A DNA stretch of 64,000 nt from Acidovorax sp. 106 (lineage in GTDB: Bacteria; Pseudomonadota; Gammaproteobacteria; Burkholderiales; Burkholderiaceae_C): positions 2,922,501 to 2,986,500 of the forward strand of contig NZ_RCCC01000001.1 of NCBI RefSeq assembly GCF_003663825.1, written 5' to 3'. Positions 54,939-64,000 of the stretch are shown piece after piece; positions within the stretch are counted from its first letter, which is position 1, and the number at the start of each line of letters is the position of its first letter. The notes beneath the pieces are model-generated. The model was not told where the DNA came from. It saw only the letters and a list, made by a program, of their open reading frames with translations, and ran no database searches. A program made the position numbers and the translations under genes.

Positions 54939-55808
54939 TCAGCGGGCTTCCAGCCAGTTCTTGAGCGGCTGGCTGGCCCAGGCCTTGGCCTCTTCCCCCA
55001 CAAACATCTTGGGCGCCGATGCCGCCAGGCGCTTGCGCTTTTCCTGGGCCTGGATGGACTTTTGTGCCGCGCCCATCCAGTCCGTGATCGACAGCTGCTC
55101 GGCGCCTGCCTGGTTGAACAGCGCGTCGGCAAAGAAGGTGTGTTCGCCGGGGTACTGGCATTTGAAGGACGTCTTGTGCACGTCGGTGGCCGTCAGCACC
55201 ACGCGGTTGGGCGCGCGCAGGGGCTCCAGAAAGGCGCCGCTGTAGCAGGCCGACAGCACCACCAGCGTGGGCGTCTTGGCCAAGGGGGCCAGCGCATCGC
55301 TCAGGGCGCGGGCGGTCAACGGGGCGGCGTTTTTGCCTGCGATGTTGATGTTCAGCGTGCCGGGGTTGGCGTGGGTGGAGATCAGCAGCATCACCCGGTC
55401 TTGCGGCCGGGCCACTTCGGCCATCTTGGTCATCACCAGTTCAAAGTTCTCCAGCGTGGCTTGGGGCCAATCGCTGGTTTGGGTGCTGGCCTGGTCGCGC
55501 GCGGGGTTGGCCAGCTTCAGGATGAGGGCGTTGGGGTCGATTTGCTTGGCCAGCTTTTCAGCGGCCAGCACGTCGTTGCGGAAGGCCTTGGCCTGCGAAT
55601 GCATGGCAAAGCCCGCAAAGATCAGCCGGGGTGGGGGCACGGGTGCGGGTGCTTCGGCTGCTGGGGGCGGGGGTGGTGCCACGGGCTCCGGCACAGGCTC
55701 GGGGGCTGTGGCGCAGCCTGTGGCGAGCAGGGCGGCACACAAGGTGGCATAGAGGGCCGTGGCAGACAGAAGACCCCGGCGGGAGGAGGCGAATGCGGTG
55801 GAGAGCAT
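54939..55808 (-). CDS. C13 (legumain/caspase-like) family lipoprotein peptidase
   Basis: A 289-residue predicted lipoprotein: signal SSRRGLLSATALYATLCAAL ending in LATGC, a Pro/Ala-rich linker, then a C13 peptidase-like domain. The catalytic His is in VMLLISTHANPG, where the family usually has SHG, and the catalytic Cys in LVVLSACYSGAFLEPLR. VVLTATDVHKTSFKC follows, as in this family. ATG 55808 gives a good signal peptide; ATG 55844 adds 12 residues. Substrates are unknown. It lies downstream of opgH but is separated from it by a terminator, and it occupies the place where moaE might be expected. Confidence 0.8.
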   Translation of the reverse strand: MLSTAFASSRRGLLSATALYATLCAALLATGCATAPEPVPEPVAPPPPPAAEAPAPVPPPRLIFAGFAMHSQAKAFRNDVLAAEKLAKQIDPNALILKLANPARDQASTQTSDWPQATLENFELVMTKMAEVARPQDRVMLLISTHANPGTLNINIAGKNAAPLTARALSDALAPLAKTPTLVVLSACYSGAFLEPLRAPNRVVLTATDVHKTSFKCQYPGEHTFFADALFNQAGAEQLSITDWMGAAQKSIQAQEKRKRLAASAPKMFVGEEAKAWASQPLKNWLEAR

Positions 55809-55844
55809 GGTCGTTTTTTGGCGAAGTGTGATGAATGGATGCAT

Positions 55845-56200: not shown

Positions 56201-58321
56201 TCAGGCCATGGATGCTGCGGGCGCCAGGGGCAGCCTCGGCTGTGCCAAGCGTTGCGCGTGCCGCCAGGCCCGGCGCAGCACCGGGGGCGACCAGGCTTCT
56301 TCGGGGATCAATAAAAAGCGTTGGGCGCGCATCGTCCTGCCCAGGGCGATCTGGCTGGTGACCACGGCCATGGGGATGGCCAGGGCCAGCGGCACACCCA
56401 CGGGGGCCAGCCACAGCAGTGCGCCGCTGTCGATGGCACCAATGCCCGCAGCCAACAGGGCGATCACGGCGGTCATGGGCGCGAGCTGGGCCATGGCGTG
56501 GCGCCAGGGCACGGCTTGGGCCTCACGCGGGGGCGACTTCCATTCCAGCGCGATGCCGGTGAGGGCCACCAGCACGAACAGCGAGTGCGCCAGCATGCGC
56601 ACCGGCGCTTGCAGGATGGCCAGCGTGCTCTCGAGCACAGCGCTTTTGAGCAGGCTCAGCGCACCGCCGTACTGCGCCTGCTCGTTGCGCATGAACACCG
56701 CCAGCACGCCTAGCACGCGGGGCAGGAACAGCATGCTCAACGTCCAGGCCCACAGCGCCAGCAACTCGGCGGGCAGGATGTGCCAGTCGGCCAGCACGGG
56801 CGCGCCAGACACCCACAGGGCCGTGCCCAGCGTCATGAAGGCCAGCCACAGCGGGGCCGATAGGTAGGCCATCGCGCCGGTCACAAACATCGAGCGGTGC
56901 ACCATGTGCAGCCCTGGCTCGGCCATCAGGCGCGCGTTTTGCAGGTTGCCCTGGCACCAGCGGCGGTCGCGCTGCAGCTCGGCCAGCAGGTCGGGCGGTT
57001 GCTGCTCGTAGCTGCCCACCAGGTCGGCCACCAGCCACACGTGGTAGCCCGCGCGGCGCATCAGGGCGGCTTCCACAAAGTCGTGGCTCATGATGCCGCC
57101 CGACAACCCGCCCTTGCCCGCAATGGGCGCCAGCGCGCAGTGCTGCATGAAGGGCGCGACGCGGATGATGGCGTTGTGCCCCCAGTAATGCGATTCGCCC
57201 AGCTGCCAGAACTGCATGCCCAGCGTGAACAGCCGCCCTGTGACGCGCGAGGCAAACTGCTGTGCACGCGCATGCAGCGTGACATGGCCAATGGCCTGCG
57301 TGGCCGTCTGGATGATGCCGGCCTGCGGGTGGGCTTCCATCAGCTTGGCCATGGAGACGATGCACTCGCCGCTCATCACGCTGTCGGCGTCCAGCACCAC
57401 CATGTAGCGGTAGTCCTTGCCCCAGCGGCGGCAGAAGTCGGCCACGTTGCCCGCCTTGCGGTGGGTGCGACGCTTGCGCAGGCGGTAGTACACCTGCACC
57501 TGGGGTGGCTGGCCGTGGGCGGCCAGCGCGCTGCGCAGGTCTTCCCAGGCCGCGCGCTCGGCACGGGCGATGTCGCTGTCGTAGCTGTCAGACAGCACGA
57601 ACACGTCGAACGTGGCGCCATGGCCTGTGGCCGCCACCGATTCGCAGGTGGCGCGCAGCCCGGCAAACACCGTGGCCACGTCTTCATTGCAGATGGGCAT
57701 GATGATGGCGGTGCGGGCCTCGGGCGCTAGCACGTGGTCCGCCACGCTCTGCGCCGACAGCGCATGCCGATCGCCCCGCAGCATGACCCAAAAGCCCATC
57801 ATGCCGGTGACAAAGCCCGACACCACCCAGGCCGACAGCAGTGCAAACAACGCAATCTGCCCATAGCCCAGCCAGGCGTTGTCGTAGTGCGGCTGCACCT
57901 GGGCAAACAGCAGGCTGGCCAGGGTGGTGCTGGCCAGCACCAGCAGTGCAAAGGTCCAGCGGCGGCGCTGTGCCGCGGCTTGCCAGGGTTGGGGCGCCTG
58001 CTTGGGTTGCGCTGTGTGGGCTGCGGCGGTGCGGCCTGTCAGCGCACGGCCGATGCTTTTCCAGAAGCCTTGCCAGGGCACGGCGGGCATGGAGCCCCGG
58101 TGCACGGGCGGGGCCGTCATGCTGTTGGGGTGGCGCGCGGCGCGCAGCGGGCTGCGTTGGGTGGGTACGGGTTTGATGGCCATGGGCTGTGCGTTGCGGG
58201 GGTAAGACGCGCCTTTGCGCGCCAGGCCTTCGGTGGCAGCGCTGGGCAGGGCGGCCGTGGCGTGGCGTGCCTGCCAACGTGTTGCGCTCTGGCCTACTCG
58301 GGAAGAATGATGTGGGTCCAT
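56201..58321 (-). CDS. opgH: Osmoregulated periplasmic glucan glucosyltransferase
   Basis: OpgH (MdoH) builds and exports beta-glucan backbones across the inner membrane. The 706-residue product has an N-terminal cytoplasmic tail of about 120 residues, membrane segments around FALLVLASTTLASLLFAQVQ, then a GT2 core with IIMPICNEDVATVFAGL, LSDSYDSDIA, YMVVLDADSVMSG and the QXXRW motif in QRDRRWCQGN. Several further membrane segments follow. ATG 58321 lies 28 bases inside the end of opgG, so the two are coupled. Length is shorter than the 847 residues of E. coli MdoH but normal for betaproteobacteria. Confidence 0.93.
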   Translation of the reverse strand: MDPHHSSRVGQSATRWQARHATAALPSAATEGLARKGASYPRNAQPMAIKPVPTQRSPLRAARHPNSMTAPPVHRGSMPAVPWQGFWKSIGRALTGRTAAAHTAQPKQAPQPWQAAAQRRRWTFALLVLASTTLASLLFAQVQPHYDNAWLGYGQIALFALLSAWVVSGFVTGMMGFWVMLRGDRHALSAQSVADHVLAPEARTAIIMPICNEDVATVFAGLRATCESVAATGHGATFDVFVLSDSYDSDIARAERAAWEDLRSALAAHGQPPQVQVYYRLRKRRTHRKAGNVADFCRRWGKDYRYMVVLDADSVMSGECIVSMAKLMEAHPQAGIIQTATQAIGHVTLHARAQQFASRVTGRLFTLGMQFWQLGESHYWGHNAIIRVAPFMQHCALAPIAGKGGLSGGIMSHDFVEAALMRRAGYHVWLVADLVGSYEQQPPDLLAELQRDRRWCQGNLQNARLMAEPGLHMVHRSMFVTGAMAYLSAPLWLAFMTLGTALWVSGAPVLADWHILPAELLALWAWTLSMLFLPRVLGVLAVFMRNEQAQYGGALSLLKSAVLESTLAILQAPVRMLAHSLFVLVALTGIALEWKSPPREAQAVPWRHAMAQLAPMTAVIALLAAGIGAIDSGALLWLAPVGVPLALAIPMAVVTSQIALGRTMRAQRFLLIPEEAWSPPVLRRAWRHAQRLAQPRLPLAPAASMA

Positions 58322-59880
58322 GTTTCGCTCACAGCGTGTTGGAGGTGTTGAAGAAAGGCGCGTAGCTCAATGGGCTGGGTGCCCTGCAGGCGCTCGATGC
58401 GCAGCGTCATGCGCCATTGGCCGGTGGCCGGGTTGCGGTACACGCCGCTTTCGAGCACGCGGGCATTGGCATCGCTGGTCACCACCGCTTTCACGGGTGC
58501 GTCGGCCGCCAGGTCTTGCAGTGCGGGGCCTGCAAAGTCGATCACGTACTGCACCTGCTTGCGCAGGGCCTCAGGGCTTTGCTGGGTGTAGCCCACGCCC
58601 TTGCGTGACTGGGTAGCCCAGGCGCTGGGGGGGCGTTGCTGTCCGGCGCCCTGGTCGCCTTGCCAAGCCAGCTCGTAGCACACCTCCAGCGGGGTGCCGG
58701 GGGGCGGCAGTTGCTGGGGCACCCAGTAGGCAACGACGTTGTCGTGGGTCTCGTCGGGCGTGGGCAATTGCACCAACTCCACGCGGCCGGGGCCCCAGTT
58801 GTGCAGGGGCCGCACCCAGGCGCTGGGGCGGCGCTCGTAGCGGGCTTCCACGTCTTCGTAGCTGCTCCACTGCCGGTCGCGCTGCATCAGGCCAAAGCCT
58901 TGGGGGTTGGTGGTGGCAAACGAGGTGACCAGGGGCTGCTGGGGGTTTTGCAGCGGGCGCCAGAGCCATTCGCCCTCGCCGGTGGCCACCATCAGGCCGT
59001 CGGAGTCGTGCACTTCGGGGCGGAAGTCGTCCTTGCGCGGCTGGTTCTCGCCAAACAGGAACATGCTGGTCAGCGGGGCAATGCCCAGGGTTTTGATGGG
59101 GCCTGCGCCGCCGCGCACAAAGATGCGGGCCGTCACCGTGGTGGTGGTTTGCGCGCCGGGGCGGATGTCAAAGCGATAAGCCCCGGTGGCGCGGGGCGAA
59201 TCCAGCAGTGCATACACCGTGGCCTGGGTGTCACCGGGCTGTGGCCGCACCAGCCAGAACTCGGTAAAGCGCGGAAATTCCTCGCCCTGGCCGCCCACGG
59301 TGTCGATGGCTAGGCCCCGGGCCGACAGCCCATATTGCTGGCCCGCACCCAGCGCACGGAAGTAGCTGGCGCCCTGGAAGACGGCCAGCTCGTCCTTGTA
59401 GTCGGGCGAGTTCAAGTGGTAGTGCAGGCGAAAGCCCGCAAACCCCAGGTCGCCCCAGGTCTGGGGCTTGACGGCGTTCTTGCCGTAGTCAAAGTCTGCG
59501 GCCCGGTAAGGGATGTGGCGTGTGCCTTGTGGCGACACCTCGTTGATGAGCACCGGCTCGCGCTGGTACAGGCCCAGGTGGAAGAACATGGCCTCAAACG
59601 GCAACTGTGACGGCTCGGTACGGGTGCGCCACAGGGCGCGCTCAGGCCGCCAGCGGATGTCGCGCACCTGGTCGTAGTCCATGGCCTCCAGCTCGGGAGG
59701 CAGGCGTACGTTCATGGCGCTGTAGGGTTGGGTGGCGCGCTGCTTGGCCAGCTGGGTGATGGCGTCCAGGTCAATGGCCTGGGCCGACGCGGCCGTGGCC
59801 AGCAGTACTGCGCACAGCGCCAGCACGGGCTGTGCCGCCCGGGGCGAGTGGCGCAAGGATGGATAAAAAGCGGCTTGCAT
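58294..59880 (-). CDS. opgG: Glucan biosynthesis protein G
   Basis: OpgG (MdoG) is the periplasmic protein needed to make branched osmoregulated glucans with OpgH. The 528-residue product has a signal peptide (LALCAVLLATAASAQA), then FDLDAI-type start IDLDAITQLAKQRATQPYS, VRDIRWRPERALW, INEVSPQGTRHIPYRAADFD, YHLNSPDYKDELAVFQGASY and IAPLTSMFLFGENQ. ATG 59880 has no Shine-Dalgarno, and a predicted sigma-54 start site falls one base before it. A TTG at 59856 (codon 9) would also give a good signal peptide. Confidence 0.93.
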   Translation of the reverse strand: MQAAFYPSLRHSPRAAQPVLALCAVLLATAASAQAIDLDAITQLAKQRATQPYSAMNVRLPPELEAMDYDQVRDIRWRPERALWRTRTEPSQLPFEAMFFHLGLYQREPVLINEVSPQGTRHIPYRAADFDYGKNAVKPQTWGDLGFAGFRLHYHLNSPDYKDELAVFQGASYFRALGAGQQYGLSARGLAIDTVGGQGEEFPRFTEFWLVRPQPGDTQATVYALLDSPRATGAYRFDIRPGAQTTTTVTARIFVRGGAGPIKTLGIAPLTSMFLFGENQPRKDDFRPEVHDSDGLMVATGEGEWLWRPLQNPQQPLVTSFATTNPQGFGLMQRDRQWSSYEDVEARYERRPSAWVRPLHNWGPGRVELVQLPTPDETHDNVVAYWVPQQLPPPGTPLEVCYELAWQGDQGAGQQRPPSAWATQSRKGVGYTQQSPEALRKQVQYVIDFAGPALQDLAADAPVKAVVTSDANARVLESGVYRNPATGQWRMTLRIERLQGTQPIELRAFLQHLQHAVSETWTHIILPE

Positions 59881-59892
59881 GCCAACACTAGG

Positions 59893-59907
59893 GCAAACCC
59901 TGTGCCA
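59893..59907 (-). promoter_or_regulatory. Sigma-54 (-24/-12) promoter for opgGH
   Basis: On the minus strand TGGCACAGGGTTTGC matches the sigma-54 consensus TGGCAC-N5-TTGC, with GG and GC exactly ten bases apart. The predicted start of transcription is near 59881, right before the opgG ATG. The upstream IHF and GlrR-type sites strengthen the call. Confidence 0.75.
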
Positions 59908-59926
59908 GCTTGAAAAAGTGCTTTTA

Positions 59927-59939
59927 AATCAGAGGCTTA
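59927..59939 (+). promoter_or_regulatory. IHF-binding consensus between activator site and sigma-54 promoter
   Basis: AATCAGAGGCTTA matches WATCARNNNNTTR at every fixed position. It lies between the TGTC-N10-GACA dyad and the -24/-12 element, the usual place for IHF-assisted DNA bending at sigma-54 promoters. Confidence 0.65.
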
Positions 59940-59948
59940 GGAACGGGT

Positions 59949-59970
59949 CTGCACGTAAGCAATTGTGCAG
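59949..59970. promoter_or_regulatory. Second N10-spaced dyad upstream of opgG
   Basis: CTGCAC and GTGCAG are exact inverted repeats ten bases apart, the same spacing as the TGTC/GACA dyad 62 bases upstream. It could be an extra regulator site or chance. Confidence 0.35.
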
Positions 59971-60012
59971 GGCGGGCCAATGGGGGCCCAGCGGAAGAAA
60001 TGGCTGTCTTTT

Positions 60013-60030
60013 TGTCGCCATCTGGCGACA
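60013..60030. promoter_or_regulatory. GlrR/QseF-type activator site TGTC-N10-GACA
   Basis: TGTCGCCATCTGGCGACA is a perfect dyad and matches TGTC-N10-GACA, the element known for GlrR at enterobacterial glmY promoters. It lies about 115 bases upstream of the -24 element, within the normal range for a sigma-54 activator, and 43 bases after the stop of the glrR-like gene. Confidence 0.75.
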
Positions 60031-60072
60031 GGGGTGATGCGTGTTGGAGAAAAATCCAAGCGAATCAACGCA

Positions 60073-61503
60073 TTACTCGTGTCGCTCTTCAGCGACATCG
60101 TCGCCCACCACCCCGTCGGCCTTGAATTGACCTGGCGTCAGCGCGTGCTTTTGCAGCAGCCGGTAAAACTCGGTGCGGTTGCGCTGCGCCAGGCGCGCGG
60201 CATCGGCCACGTTGCCATCGGTCATCTTCAACAGCCCCACCAGGTACTCGCGCTCAAAGCGCTGGCGGGCCTCGGCAAAGCTCAGCACCTGGGCCGATGG
60301 AATGCGCAGGGCCCGCTGCACCATCGACAGCGGCACCAGCGGTGTGGTGGACAGGGCGCACACCTGCTCGACCACGTTGTAGAGCTGGCGCACGTTACCG
60401 GGCCAGGCGGCGGTGGTGAGGGCCTTCAGCGCTTCGGGCGCAAAGCCCGACAGGCGCTTGTCGTACTTGCGGGCCAGCTTGTCCAGAAAGTGGTTGGCCA
60501 GCAGCGCAATGTCTTCGCGCCGCTCGCCCAGCGTGGGCAGCAGCAGCGTGACCACATTCAGCCGGTAGTACAGGTCTTCGCGGAACTGGCCTGCCGCCAT
60601 GGCGGCCTCCAGGTTGCGGTGCGTGGCCGAGACGATGCGCACATTGATCTGGATGGACTGGCTCGAACCCACGGGCCGCACCGCACGCTCTTGCAGCACG
60701 CGCAGCAGCTTGACCTGCAGGGCGGGCGGCATGTCGCCGATTTCGTCGAGCAGCAGCGTGCCGCCCTCGGCCGCCTGGAACAGGCCCTTGTGGTTGCTCA
60801 CCGCGTCGGTAAAGGCGCCTTTGACGTGGCCGAACAGCTCGGATTCGAGCAGCGCCTCGGGGATGGCCCCGCAGTTCACCGCCACAAAGGGCTTGGCCGC
60901 GCGGGGGCTGGCGCGGTGAATGGCTTGGGCCAGCAGTTCTTTGCCCGCGCCGCTGTCGCCCAGCAGCAGCACGCTGGCGTCCGATTGGGCCACCAGGTAG
61001 GCCTCGGCCAGCAGGTCGGTCATGCGGGCCGAGCGGCTCACGATGTCGGCGCGCCAGGCCTCGTTGGCGTGGGCCTGGTGCACGGCGGGGGCGCTCAGGG
61101 CCAGGGCCTGGGCGACTTTTTCCAGCAGCTCTTTGCCGTCGTAGGGCTTGGTCAGGTAGGTGAAGACGCCACGCGATGTGGCCTCGACCGCATCGGGGAT
61201 GGTGCCGTGGGCCGTGAGCAGAATCACCGGCAGCGAAGGGTGGCGCGCGTGCACCTCGTCAAACAGCGCCAAGCCATCCTTGCCAGGCAGGCGCACATCG
61301 CTGAGCACCAGTTGGGGCCGGGCCACGTCCAGCTGCGCCAGCGCGGCCTCGGCCGAGCCCACGGCCACCACTTCGTGTCCGGCGGCTTTGAGGCGCAGCG
61401 ACAGCAGGCGCAGCATGTCGGCATCGTCGTCCACCACCAGGATGCGGTGCGGTGTGCGATGCGTGGCACTGTGTGGCGCCGGTGGCCGGGTGGAGGTGGG
61501 CAT
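60073..61503 (-). CDS. glrR: Sigma-54-dependent response regulator, GlrR/QseF type
   Basis: A 476-residue NtrC-family activator. The receiver domain has ILVVDDDADM and phospho-acceptor D69 in LVLSDVRLPGKDG. The AAA+ domain has Walker A LGDSGAGKELLAQAI (182-189 core), the sigma-54 loop GAFTDA (229-234; usual GAFTGA), GGTLLLDEIGDMPPALQVKL and FREDLYYRLNV. The Fis-type helix-turn-helix is NVADAARLAQRNRTEFYRLL. Overall sequence and the neighbouring kinase and lipoprotein point to GlrR/QseF. A TGTC-N10-GACA site lies just downstream of the gene. It follows the lipoprotein gene by 11 bases. Confidence 0.93.
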   Translation of the reverse strand: MPTSTRPPAPHSATHRTPHRILVVDDDADMLRLLSLRLKAAGHEVVAVGSAEAALAQLDVARPQLVLSDVRLPGKDGLALFDEVHARHPSLPVILLTAHGTIPDAVEATSRGVFTYLTKPYDGKELLEKVAQALALSAPAVHQAHANEAWRADIVSRSARMTDLLAEAYLVAQSDASVLLLGDSGAGKELLAQAIHRASPRAAKPFVAVNCGAIPEALLESELFGHVKGAFTDAVSNHKGLFQAAEGGTLLLDEIGDMPPALQVKLLRVLQERAVRPVGSSQSIQINVRIVSATHRNLEAAMAAGQFREDLYYRLNVVTLLLPTLGERREDIALLANHFLDKLARKYDKRLSGFAPEALKALTTAAWPGNVRQLYNVVEQVCALSTTPLVPLSMVQRALRIPSAQVLSFAEARQRFEREYLVGLLKMTDGNVADAARLAQRNRTEFYRLLQKHALTPGQFKADGVVGDDVAEERHE

Positions 61504-61514
61504 GGCGTGGTGCT

Positions 61515-62228
61515 TCAGGGTTTGGCGTTGCCATTGCCGTTGTTGCTGCCCGCACTGCTGGCTGCAGCGCCGGGGGATGGCGTGGTGGGGGCGGCAGGCG
61601 CTGGGCGTGTGGTCAGGCTGCGTTCAATGGCGCGCACTGCTTCCAGGCGCTCGCTCAGCTGGTCGTTGCGGCGCTGGGCTTCGCGCAGTTGCTGGGCTTG
61701 GCGCTCCAACTGGTCCTCCATGCGGCGCTGCTGCGTCAGGCGCGCCTCCAGCAGGCGGGCCAGCGGGTGCAGGTCTTGTGCGGCGGGGTTGGTCAGGGTG
61801 CGCTGCACCAGGCCCAGTGCGCGGGCGGTGTCCACGGGCTGGCGGGTTTGGGCCAGCACCAGTGCCAGGCGCAGCGCGCGCGAGGGCTTGCTCTCGTCCA
61901 GGTCCGACAGGCGTGCCATCTCGCGCGCCAGATCGGTGGTGCTGGCGCCCAGGGTGCGGTCTGCATAGGCCAGGGTGTCGCGCAGCAGGTCTTTGGTTGG
62001 CGTGGTGGGCTCGTCGCTTTCAGCGGCCAGTGGCTCGGGCGCAGCTGGGGCGGGCTCTGGTGTCTCTTGTGCCGCTGGGGCTGCGATCGCCGGTGCCACA
62101 TCGGGCGGGGTGGGCGCCGTGGCGCAGCCTGCCAGCCAGACCACGCACAGGCATGAGGCTGCAAGGCCCCAGCGGGCAGCCCAATGTGCTGGGCGGTGAG
62201 TCGGCAGGGCGTGCGGTTCAGGAAACAT
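61515..62228 (-). CDS. QseG-type lipoprotein in the kinase-regulator operon
   Basis: A 237-residue predicted lipoprotein with signal AARWGLAASCLCVVWLAGCA (lipobox LAGC), a Pro/Ala-rich linker and a helical domain ending in a coiled coil (RRMEDQLERQAQQLREAQRR). It lies between kinase and regulator, the position of QseG (YfhG), which in enterobacteria controls the kinase from the envelope. The sequence is divergent, so the equivalence rests on position and type. ATG 62228 overlaps the kinase 3' end by 11 bases; the longer frame upstream is a kinase shadow. Confidence 0.8.
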   Translation of the reverse strand: MFPEPHALPTHRPAHWAARWGLAASCLCVVWLAGCATAPTPPDVAPAIAAPAAQETPEPAPAAPEPLAAESDEPTTPTKDLLRDTLAYADRTLGASTTDLAREMARLSDLDESKPSRALRLALVLAQTRQPVDTARALGLVQRTLTNPAAQDLHPLARLLEARLTQQRRMEDQLERQAQQLREAQRRNDQLSERLEAVRAIERSLTTRPAPAAPTTPSPGAAASSAGSNNGNGNAKP

Positions 62229-63675
62229 CGGGCAATTCGATTCGGAAAAAAGAGCGGGAGGTATCGCCGGGCATCGGCAGCACCTGCACCCGCCCGCCGT
62301 GGGCGTGGATGTATTCCTGCACGATGGACAGCCCGATGCCGGTGCCGCGCACCGCGTTATCAGGCTGGCGCTCACCCCGGTAAAAGGGTTCAAACACATG
62401 GGGCCGGTCGGCTGGGGCCACGCCGGGGCCGTCGTCGGTCACATCCACCTGCACCTGCCCGGGCACACGCGACACGGCCAGGCGCACCGTGCCTTGCTCG
62501 GGCGAGAAGCGGATGGCGTTAGACAACAGGTTGCCCATGGCCGAGGTGATTTTTTCTGCATCCAGCAGCAGCACGGTGCGCTCGCCGCTCACCTCCACCC
62601 GCAGGCTGCGGGCCTGCCATTGCAGGCGCTGTGCCTCCACCAGGTCTTCCAGCAGTGCGATCAGATCGGTCTCGCGCCGCCGCAACTGGCCGGCCTCAAA
62701 GGCGGCGGCGTTAAAGCGCAGCAGTGCCTCGATCTCGCTTTGCAGCACCAGGGTGTTCTGGTGCAGGATTTGCGTCACTTCTTTCTGGCCCTCGCTCAAT
62801 TCGCCGGTCACGCCGTCCTGCAGCAGGGCCACGCCTTCGCGCAGCGCAGCCAGCGGGGTTTTGAGCTCGTGCGAGACATGGCGCAAAAAGCGCGCCTTGT
62901 CGGCGTCCAGCTCCAGCAGCCGCAGGCGCAGCCACTCCAGCTGTTGGCCCACGCGGCGCACGTCGGCGGGGCCGGTGATGGCCACGGGTTGTTCCAGCTG
63001 GTTCTCGCCCAGGCGGCGAATGGCGCGCTCGAGCCGCTTGAAGGGGCGTGCCAGCCCAATGCCCAGCCACAGTGCCAGCACCAGCGCCAGCACAATCGCG
63101 CCCACCAGTTGGTGCATCACGGTGCGGCGGCTGGCGTCTACCCGCGCTTGCAGTTCGCTGGCCTGGCGGGCATTGAGTTCTTGCACCGATTGCGTGATGG
63201 CCGCGTGCAGGGTGTCGAGCGCTACAAACTCTTCGGCCACGCTGCGTTCGCTCTCCAGCGACTGCCAGGGCGGTGCGCGCAGCAAATCGTGCACGGCTTG
63301 CATGCGGGCCTGCCACTGCTGGGCTTGGGCGGGTGGCAGGCCCGCGTCGCTCAGTTGGCGCACGATGCCCTGGGCATCGGCGGCCAGGTCGTCAAAGCTT
63401 TGGCGCAGCAGGGGGTCGTTCAGCACCAGCGATTGCCGGGCCGAGCGTTCCATGGCCTGGCCGCGCTGGTTCAGCGCCTGGGCCGCCACGTTCAGTGCGG
63501 CCGCCTGGGCGGCGCTGGCCTGGCTTTGGCCCATCAGCGTTTCGAGCGTGAACACCGCCCGCAGGGCGCTGGCGCCCAGCAGCCCCGCAATCAGCAAGAA
63601 GGCGAGCAGCAGCAGTTGCTGAAACGATGGGCCGTGCGGGCGAGCCTGCGGGGGGCTCGTGGGGTGTGGGGCCAT
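62218..63675 (-). CDS. glrK: Two-component sensor histidine kinase, GlrK/QseE type
   Basis: A 485-residue inner-membrane kinase. Two membrane segments (LLLAFLLIAGLLGASALRAV near 20-40 and AIVLALVLALWLGIGLA near 190) flank a helical periplasmic sensor. A HAMP domain, the phospho-acceptor His in FLRHVSHELKTPLAALREG, the N box MGNLLSNAIRFSPEQG, VTDDGPGV and RGTGIGLSIVQEYIHAHGG follow. It leads the operon with the lipoprotein and glrR. It starts 15 bases after the miaB stop and may be read from the same transcript. Confidence 0.92.
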   Translation of the reverse strand: MAPHPTSPPQARPHGPSFQQLLLLAFLLIAGLLGASALRAVFTLETLMGQSQASAAQAAALNVAAQALNQRGQAMERSARQSLVLNDPLLRQSFDDLAADAQGIVRQLSDAGLPPAQAQQWQARMQAVHDLLRAPPWQSLESERSVAEEFVALDTLHAAITQSVQELNARQASELQARVDASRRTVMHQLVGAIVLALVLALWLGIGLARPFKRLERAIRRLGENQLEQPVAITGPADVRRVGQQLEWLRLRLLELDADKARFLRHVSHELKTPLAALREGVALLQDGVTGELSEGQKEVTQILHQNTLVLQSEIEALLRFNAAAFEAGQLRRRETDLIALLEDLVEAQRLQWQARSLRVEVSGERTVLLLDAEKITSAMGNLLSNAIRFSPEQGTVRLAVSRVPGQVQVDVTDDGPGVAPADRPHVFEPFYRGERQPDNAVRGTGIGLSIVQEYIHAHGGRVQVLPMPGDTSRSFFRIELPDVS

Positions 63676-63690: not shown

Positions 63691-64000
63691 TCAGGCGGTG
63701 AGGGCGGCGCCCTCGCGCACCAGCACCTCGCCGCGCAGGGTGTAGGCCTTGGCTTCGGTGATGGTCACATCTACCATCTGGCCCACCAGGCGGGGCTGGC
63801 CCACAAAGTTGACCACGCGGTTGCACTCGGTGCGGCCCATCAGCTCGGTAGCGTCGCGCTTGGAGGCGCCTTCCACCAAAATGCGCTGCACCGTGCCCAC
63901 ACGGCTTTCGCTGATGGACTTGATGTTGGCGTTGATAACGCCCTGCAGGTGTTGCAAGCGGCGCAGCTTCACGTCGTGCGGCGTGTCGTCGTGCAGGCCC
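63691..64000 (-). CDS. miaB: tRNA-2-methylthio-N6-dimethylallyladenosine synthase, C-terminal part (cut by window edge)
   Basis: The last ~103 residues of MiaB, the radical-SAM enzyme that methylthiolates N6-isopentenyl-A37 of tRNAs. The visible part has [20 protein letters not shown], the methylthiotransferase linker [20 protein letters not shown], and the TRAM RNA-binding domain with [14 protein letters not shown] and [13 protein letters not shown]. The two Fe-S cluster binding regions lie outside the window. The gene is cut at base 64000 by the window edge, not broken. It runs directly into the kinase gene. Confidence 0.94.

Follow-up and report, generated by a model that had tools for sequence, protein, structure and literature searches.

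The locus raises the question of what controls opgG and opgH, which lie behind the genes of a putative GlrK/GlrR system. In the window (the whole 64-kb stretch of DNA that was analysed), the minus-strand gene order is kinase gene, lipoprotein-like gene, glrR, a 192-bp gap, opgG, and opgH:

62218..63675, minus strand: GlrK-like sensor histidine kinase with HAMP, HisKA, and HATPase domains (Pfam)
61515..62399, minus strand: lipoprotein-like gene in the QseG position (lipobox LAGC by eye)
60073..61503, minus strand: glrR-like response regulator with a receiver and a sigma-54 activation domain (Pfam, NCBIfam, alignment with E. coli GlrR)
58294..59880, minus strand: opgG (mdoG), periplasmic glucan biosynthesis protein (Pfam MdoG, 1e-189)
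56201..58321, minus strand: opgH (mdoH), glucosyltransferase (NCBIfam NF003960, 1184 bits, cut-off 829)

The opgH gene overlaps the end of opgG by 28 nt, and with its products falling within the MdoG and MdoH families (Pfam, NCBIfam), opgGH is an operon for the synthesis of osmoregulated periplasmic glucans (OPG). The regulator is 57% identical to E. coli GlrR, matches Pfam Response_reg and Sigma54_activat above cut-off, and is encoded beside a sensor kinase gene. Among the 106 families that it matched, the GlrR equivalog family NF011695 was the best (602.8 bits; next best, 412.6). Because this score lies below the NF011695 cut-off of 763, the protein is named GlrR-like and not an equivalog; we refer to it as GlrR. 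The kinase and E. coli GlrK share 32% identity across 419 aligned positions. The lipoprotein-like gene, whose true start is probably downstream of the longest-ORF start, showed no significant similarity to E. coli QseG by BLASTP (27 residues, best E 0.033) and agrees with QseG only in its position and its by-eye lipobox. An ORF resembling by eye the C-terminus of MiaB (63691-64000, minus strand) ends ~16 bp before the start of the kinase gene, so that glrK may be co-read with it. Downstream of opgH lies a lipoprotein-like Peptidase_C13 gene (54939-55844, minus strand). The genome also contains rpoN and four HU/IHF-family genes, assigned at family level.

The first-pass annotation of this DNA had reported three promoter elements between glrR and opgG: a perfect TGTC-N10-GACA dyad, a full match to the IHF consensus, and TGGCAC-N5-TTGC. 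All three are exact at 60013-60030, 59927-59939, and 59893-59907, respectively, the last on the minus strand. The set was incomplete, as a further dyad and a further IHF site precede them:

60080..60097, no strand: ABS1, first GlrR-type dyad TGTCGCTGAAGAGCGACA (perfect arms of 7 bp), within the last codons of glrR
60063..60075, plus strand: IHF1, full IHF consensus match AATCAACGCATTA between both dyads, overlapping the glrR stop codon
60013..60030, no strand: ABS2, second GlrR-type dyad TGTCGCCAGATGGCGACA with 8-bp perfect arms, 67 bp from ABS1
59927..59939, plus strand: IHF2, full IHF consensus match AATCAGAGGCTTA (plus-strand reading), 32 bp upstream of the sigma-54 site
59893..59907, minus strand: sigma-54 promoter TGGCAC-N5-TTGC, TGGCACAGGGTTTGC, exact consensus, 123 bp from ABS2

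Both IHF matches were scored against WATCARNNNNTTR, which we take to be the IHF consensus. Read on the minus strand, the order toward opgG is ABS1, IHF1, ABS2, IHF2, and sigma-54 site.

We hold with good confidence that these two dyads, two IHF sites, and sigma-54 promoter would let GlrR, phosphorylated by the adjacent kinase, switch on opgGH from a start at 59880 as a leaderless message. Phosphorylated GlrR would bind ABS1 and ABS2, and IHF would bend the DNA twice, at a point between the two dyads and at a second one between ABS2 and the promoter. These bends would bring the GlrR ring onto the sigma-54 polymerase waiting at 59893-59907, ATP hydrolysis would open the promoter, and transcription from 59880, the A of the opgG ATG, would give an mRNA with a 5'-terminal AUG, on which opgH follows opgG by overlap. 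Control of opgGH by GlrR, sigma-54, and IHF is likely because the set is conserved, its presence is linked to glrR, its spacing is helical, and its site order is that of E. coli glmY. The earlier proposal that the adjacent kinase-lipoprotein-GlrR set drives glucan synthesis is supported by the conservation, the co-occurrence with glrR, and the glmY-like order, except that the lipoprotein is not recognisably QseG.

According to the available text of PMC6075780, the E. coli glmY promoter depends on GlrR, IHF, and sigma-54, with three upstream activating sites (UAS) and assistance by IHF, and is overlapped by a weak sigma-70 promoter. In the glmY sequence, we located dyads at -197 and -134, IHF sites at -177 and -58, and the sigma-54 TGGCAC at -27. 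The dyads of the two promoters are alike, the order of sites is equal, and both have a TGGCAC-type sigma-54 site. Most distances are also close: the dyads are 63 bp apart at glmY and 67 bp at the opgG promoter, the first IHF site follows the first dyad by 20 and 22 bp, and the second IHF site precedes the sigma-54 site by 31 and 32 bp. The distance from dyad to promoter differs (107 bp at glmY, 123 bp at opgG), and glmY has a third dyad at -230, unlike the opgG promoter. The glmY promoter serves a small RNA upstream of glrK, whereas the opgG promoter serves a protein operon downstream of glrR, and only the latter has a start codon on its start site. In Proteus mirabilis, a GlrR-type promoter with an overlapping sigma-70 site drives glmY together with qseEGF, as described in the available part of PMC8745638; both its target genes and that overlap set it apart from the opgG promoter. 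A further GlrR-activated sigma-54 promoter with similar UAS, E. coli rpoE P2, is described in the accessible sections of PMC6075780; its target is sigma-E, and its likeness to the opgG promoter is one of description and not of sequence. Among the open-access matches listed, supplements aside, none linked GlrR/QseF or sigma-54 to the control of opgG/mdoG. A fluoride transcriptome study of E. coli (PMC10100675) contains both words, GlrR and opgG, and PMC3162934 contains no occurrence of GlrR, YfhA, glucan, or mdoG. The GlrR-sigma-54-IHF promoter type is known; new here are the opgG target, the start codon on the predicted start site, the GAFTDA activator (see below), and the position downstream of glrR. 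The locus is a well-defined target for testing the role of GlrK/GlrR (QseE/QseF) outside enterobacteria, and makes OPG control in beta-proteobacteria testable. If the proposed control is true, Comamonadaceae and Sphaerotilaceae would control an envelope polymer directly, whereas enterobacteria act on envelope synthesis via glmY and rpoE.

The motifs were compared with chance expectation in the window and in the genome. TGTCGC-N6-GCGACA occurs twice in the 64-kb window, the two copies being 67 bp apart (mean of 100 shuffles, 0.00), and TGTC-N10-GACA occurs six times (shuffle mean, 0.71). The exact sigma-54 consensus has one match in the window, the opgG site, and 33 in the whole genome versus 6 for the reversed pattern. 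When one mismatch was permitted, 5 matches lay in the window, fewer than in its shuffles (14). Genome-wide, the looser forms did not exceed their reversed controls: the bare TGTC-N10-GACA gave 62 matches versus 71, a loose dyad-pair pattern 1 versus 1, a dyad with a loose sigma-54 site 14 versus 21, and dyads with one mismatch 292 versus 524. Motif words alone therefore prove little, and the case rests on arm length, co-location, and conservation, not on bare motifs. As signal and background were not separated by the loose patterns, no GlrR regulon was drawn from them. Of the 33 exact genomic sigma-54 sites, 30 were inspected, and only the opgG site has tandem dyads, so that GlrR may have a single strict target in this genome, weaker sites aside. 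In a dyad-pair search across the order, 76 of 399 genomes had matches, but so had many genomes with the reversed control (up to 10 in one genome), and these counts are not used as evidence. Sigma-54 and IHF sites were read at 50 of the order-wide loci, namely 30 that include the window's own and 20 chosen among the matches listed.

Conservation was followed at loci from a GlrR protein search, which returned 80. The compared set consisted of the window and 56 of these (L005-L059 and L061); L060 and L062-L084, with GlrR at most 48% identical and no opgG or opgH found, were excluded. Either opgG or opgH lies behind glrR in 38 of the 57 loci (the window and 37 relatives). Under a composite rule (a GTC-N10-GAC pair 60-82 bp apart, followed at 55-139 bp by a sigma-54 site scoring at least 17 of 21.5), tandem dyads and a sigma-54 site (GG-N10-GC) were found behind glrR in all 38. 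Elsewhere in the same loci, the rule gave 8 partial and 0 complete matches in 1,047,722 strand-bases. With at most one mismatch, IHF1 was present in 31 loci, IHF2 in 36, and both in 29; the remaining loci have IHF1 with 2-3 mismatches (7/38) or IHF2 with 2 (2/38). No relative with the same gene order had lost a dyad or the GG/GC positions, and the comparison of the glrR-opgG gap proposed by the first-pass annotation thus bore out the dyads and the sigma-54 site throughout, and both IHF sites in only 29 of the 38 loci. ABS1 and ABS2 are 65-69 bp apart in 37 loci and 80 bp apart in one; dyads 78-80 bp apart were seen in L037, L221 (79 bp), and L223 (78 bp). IHF2 constantly lies 31-32 bp before the sigma-54 promoter.

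The start site of opgG was predicted from glmY, in which 27 nt separate the annotated 5' end from the first T in the sigma-54 element. The first-pass annotation had put the opgG start at 59881; by the glmY yardstick (RefSeq-annotated 5' end), it falls one nucleotide further, on the A of the start codon:

59878..59880, minus strand: ATG start codon of opgG at the predicted +1 (27 nt, counted from the first T in the sigma-54 element)

An ATG at +26 to +30 of the sigma-54 site was found at 35 of 38 opg loci versus 2 of 35 other GlrR-type promoters, a set that lacks the six weak loci of the spacing test described below and includes a few near-duplicates. It is in frame with OpgG at 20 of the 21 opgG loci tabled (L037 is outside this table) and with OpgH at 5 of 16 opgH-first loci, 9 others having a 66-67-codon ORF instead. 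No Shine-Dalgarno-like stretch was found upstream of the ATG in the opgG loci. The median anti-Shine-Dalgarno pairing was -2.7 kcal/mol for opgG versus -6.7 kcal/mol for 16 hand-picked genes of other GlrR-type promoters, 14 of which have AGGA, GGAG, or AGGT upstream. This test is informative only against other GlrR-type promoters, because the opgG values come from bases that precede the predicted +1, and because a similar median (-2.5 kcal/mol) was obtained for 43 long window ORFs read from their first ATG, many of them surely not genes. From the ATG on the predicted start site and the missing Shine-Dalgarno stretch, we predict that opgG mRNA is leaderless with a 5'-terminal AUG. Leaderless mRNAs with a 5' AUG are known in proteobacteria, the available text of PMC3616915 giving 171 mapped transcripts in Sinorhizobium meliloti; here, in contrast, the leaderless state is predicted from the position of the sigma-54 site, at one conserved sigma-54 promoter. 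If true, this would couple the start of translation to that of transcription in an unusual way, at a conserved sigma-54 promoter.

A serious though clearly minority possibility is that the sigma-54 promoter is real and OpgG is made from an mRNA with a leader, through another promoter, read-through from glrR, or a start codon further downstream. No terminator-like site was found between glrR and opgG, so that read-through is possible; some loci offer other in-frame starts; and an ATG is missing from the predicted start in three of the 38 loci (L030, L033, and L037). Against a leader, a simple sigma-70 scan of 59700-60300 found nothing, the ATG has no preceding Shine-Dalgarno stretch, and 35 of 38 loci retain an ATG at this spacing from the sigma-54 site. 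In L039, moreover, translation in frame could begin before the aligned part only at the ATG on the predicted start, which opens a typical-looking signal peptide. A read-through mRNA from glrR would be poorly translated. In L037 (Rubrivivax), an inverted repeat with CTCGAG arms is inserted near 2057-2170 between the sigma-54 site and the opgG ATG, which would give opgG a leader in that locus.

The association of the promoter set with glrR was followed in a second sample, 100 genomes from the family to which the window belongs, which partly overlaps the loci of the GlrR search (thresholds: glrR, E 1e-100; opgH, 1e-50). glrR was found in 26 genomes, opgH in 27, and both in 21, a co-occurrence with a Fisher p of 6e-12 in which phylogeny was not controlled. 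By the composite rule, the promoter set was present in 21 of 21 genomes with both genes, 16 of them with both IHF sites, and in none of the 6 with opgH and without glrR, partial matches included; a narrower dyad rule of 60-72 bp gave chance partial matches in 3 of these 6. In one genome (G482, locus L270), glrR and opgG are ~1.7 kb apart and the set stays with opgG. Five genomes have glrR without opgH. Three of these (G461, G427, and G429) carry the whole module before other genes, G445 has dyads and a sigma-54 site but lacks good IHF sites, and nothing convincing of the promoter set was found in G486. It is unlikely, on these data, that a different enhancer-binding protein acts on the dyads with glrR a mere neighbour. 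The genome does have other genes resembling those of enhancer-binding proteins (96 loose candidates, only one of them at E 1e-100); against their involvement stand the co-occurrence of glrR and opgH, the absence of the elements from the opgH genomes that lack glrR, and the match in dyad sequence and site order to glmY, a GlrR promoter known from experiment in the available part of PMC6075780.

Outside the Comamonadaceae core, the distances from ABS2 to the promoter cluster near 71, 82, 92, 103, and 112 bp (51 loci). With one value for each of these loci, the 10.5-bp phase gave R 0.68, and 0 of 20000 random sets, drawn uniformly between the smallest and the largest distance, were as high. With distinct values only and the Comamonadaceae core included, 62 of 20000 were as high. 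The test omits six loci with sigma-54 scores of at most 18 and no IHF match (L153, L171, L190, L191, L194, and L195), and when these weak sites were restored, the phase signal was weaker but persisted (360 of 20000, distinct values). Also omitted were the near-duplicates L041, L155, L156, L185, L217, and L222 and loci without a sigma-54 call. The distance is 123 bp in the window and 122 bp in L016; L163 (128 bp), L202 (136 bp), and E. coli glmY (107 bp), which are off the helical steps, were retained. Steps of ~10.5 bp are what looping from one helix face would select. Seen over dozens of natural promoters, they are evolutionary evidence for a face-of-helix constraint on IHF-bent sigma-54 enhancers.

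The spacings also bear on the idea, which we regard as very improbable, that the sequences are conserved only because they belong to the 3' coding end of glrR or because the loci share a recent ancestor. The glrR codons do extend into ABS1 and part of IHF1, and the 38 loci are related. The set nevertheless shifts by more than 200 bp with respect to the glrR stop codon (ABS1 lies at -193 to +31 in the 38 loci and at +269 in L212), its internal spacings hardly change, and the larger spacing changes come in helical steps. The spacers diverge as well: in an ungapped alignment of 15 loci with identical spacing, the elements have 1.56 bits/column and the spacers 0.62, and the dyad centres are less conserved than the arms. 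That the dyads act as RNA hairpins, as a terminator or attenuator of glrR, is scarcely credible: they are perfect inverted repeats at or just after a gene end, but the ABS2 loop would have only 2 nt with no T-run after it, no terminator-like site was found, ABS1 is within the coding region, and the middles of the dyads are less conserved than their arms.

Returning to GlrR as the proposed activator, its sigma-54-contact loop differs from that of E. coli GlrR (GAFTGA):

60802..60819, minus strand: GAFTDA, sigma-54-contact loop of GlrR (residues hand-counted from the alignment)

GAFTDA was found in 31 of the 38 glrR-opg loci, with GAFTGA in 6 and neither matched in 1, versus GAFTGA in 17 of the 19 other loci and 2 unmatched. 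This departure from GAFTGA, like the NF011695 score below cut-off, weighs against the proposed control by GlrR. The same substitution, of aspartate for the second glycine of GAFTGA, is known as NorR G266D, which remains competent with sigma-54 and escapes repression by the sensor domain, while most changes in GAFTGA cripple such activators (both from the available text of PMC2941729). NorR differs in having a GAF domain where GlrR has a receiver domain. GAFTDA is not needed for the opgG target, as there are GAFTGA relatives with opgG (e.g., Hylemonella L057, a partial gene).

GlrR-type promoters were also found before genes other than opgG. A GlrR tree with 54 rows puts all 36 of the opg loci included to one side of a branch whose support, 92/91, is below that of the best-supported branches. 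Six loci form a neighbouring group with different genes (Oxalobacteraceae, Chitinibacteraceae, and one Roseateles). Five of its members have a BON-domain exported protein (L035, L036, and L045 by Pfam; L040 and L043 by likeness); the sixth, L041, is outside this count. Like the opgG promoter, the promoters of these five BON genes lie behind glrR with tandem dyads, IHF-like sites, and a sigma-54 site; they differ in their cargo, a small BON-domain exported protein, which has a leader and a Shine-Dalgarno-like stretch. Elsewhere in the order, GlrR-type promoters precede genes for BON, EF-hand plus BON, bactofilin, and several small proteins. In the Variovorax-type loci, opgH occurs without opgG at the locus, and a conserved ORF of 66-67 codons lies between promoter and opgH:

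L009, 8565-8768, plus strand: 66-67-aa ORF, in the same place in L011-L014, L017, L019, L028, and L034
L271, 1663-1866, plus strand: further entry of the 66-67-aa ORF

This ORF starts at an ATG on the predicted sigma-54 start in 9 loci (Variovorax, Pseudacidovorax, and Xenophilus); 7-9 nt separate its end from the ATG of opgH in the 7 loci with a clear opgH start. It has no Pfam match. Its variation by codon position is 475, 409, and 750, the third position varying most. G461, in which no opgH was found, has a homologue (E 1e-7) following the same promoter.

Judged by sequence, these loci hold one promoter module with changing cargo between lineages. A wider reading, which we advance only tentatively and judge a little short of evenly balanced, is that promoter and start codon are fused, so that only GlrR-initiated leaderless opgG messages would be translated while read-through from glrR stays silent, and that the cargo of the module (glmY RNA, BON proteins, OPG enzymes, and the 67-aa protein) is swapped between lineages. 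If true, periplasmic glucan synthesis would be gated twice by one nucleotide position.

Some further arrangements were observed among these promoters. In six loci outside the core Comamonadaceae (L035, L036, L040, L043, L045, and L048), the best first IHF match is oppositely oriented and lies ~12 bp further from ABS1 (+33/34 vs +22). In Thiobacillus and a relative (L050, L052, and L053), dyads and sigma-54 sites lie behind glrR in a different arrangement, followed by genes for a small membrane protein and, next, an EF-hand/BON protein (Pfam: L053). The bactofilin gene behind a GlrR-type promoter is at 1749-2345 of L201 (minus strand). In one family (L158, L159, L160, L163, and L202), the promoters precede genes for 53-68-aa proteins, of which that of L163, the only one of the five searched, had no Pfam match; the five share an ending of the kind RVxAARx(I/V)x.
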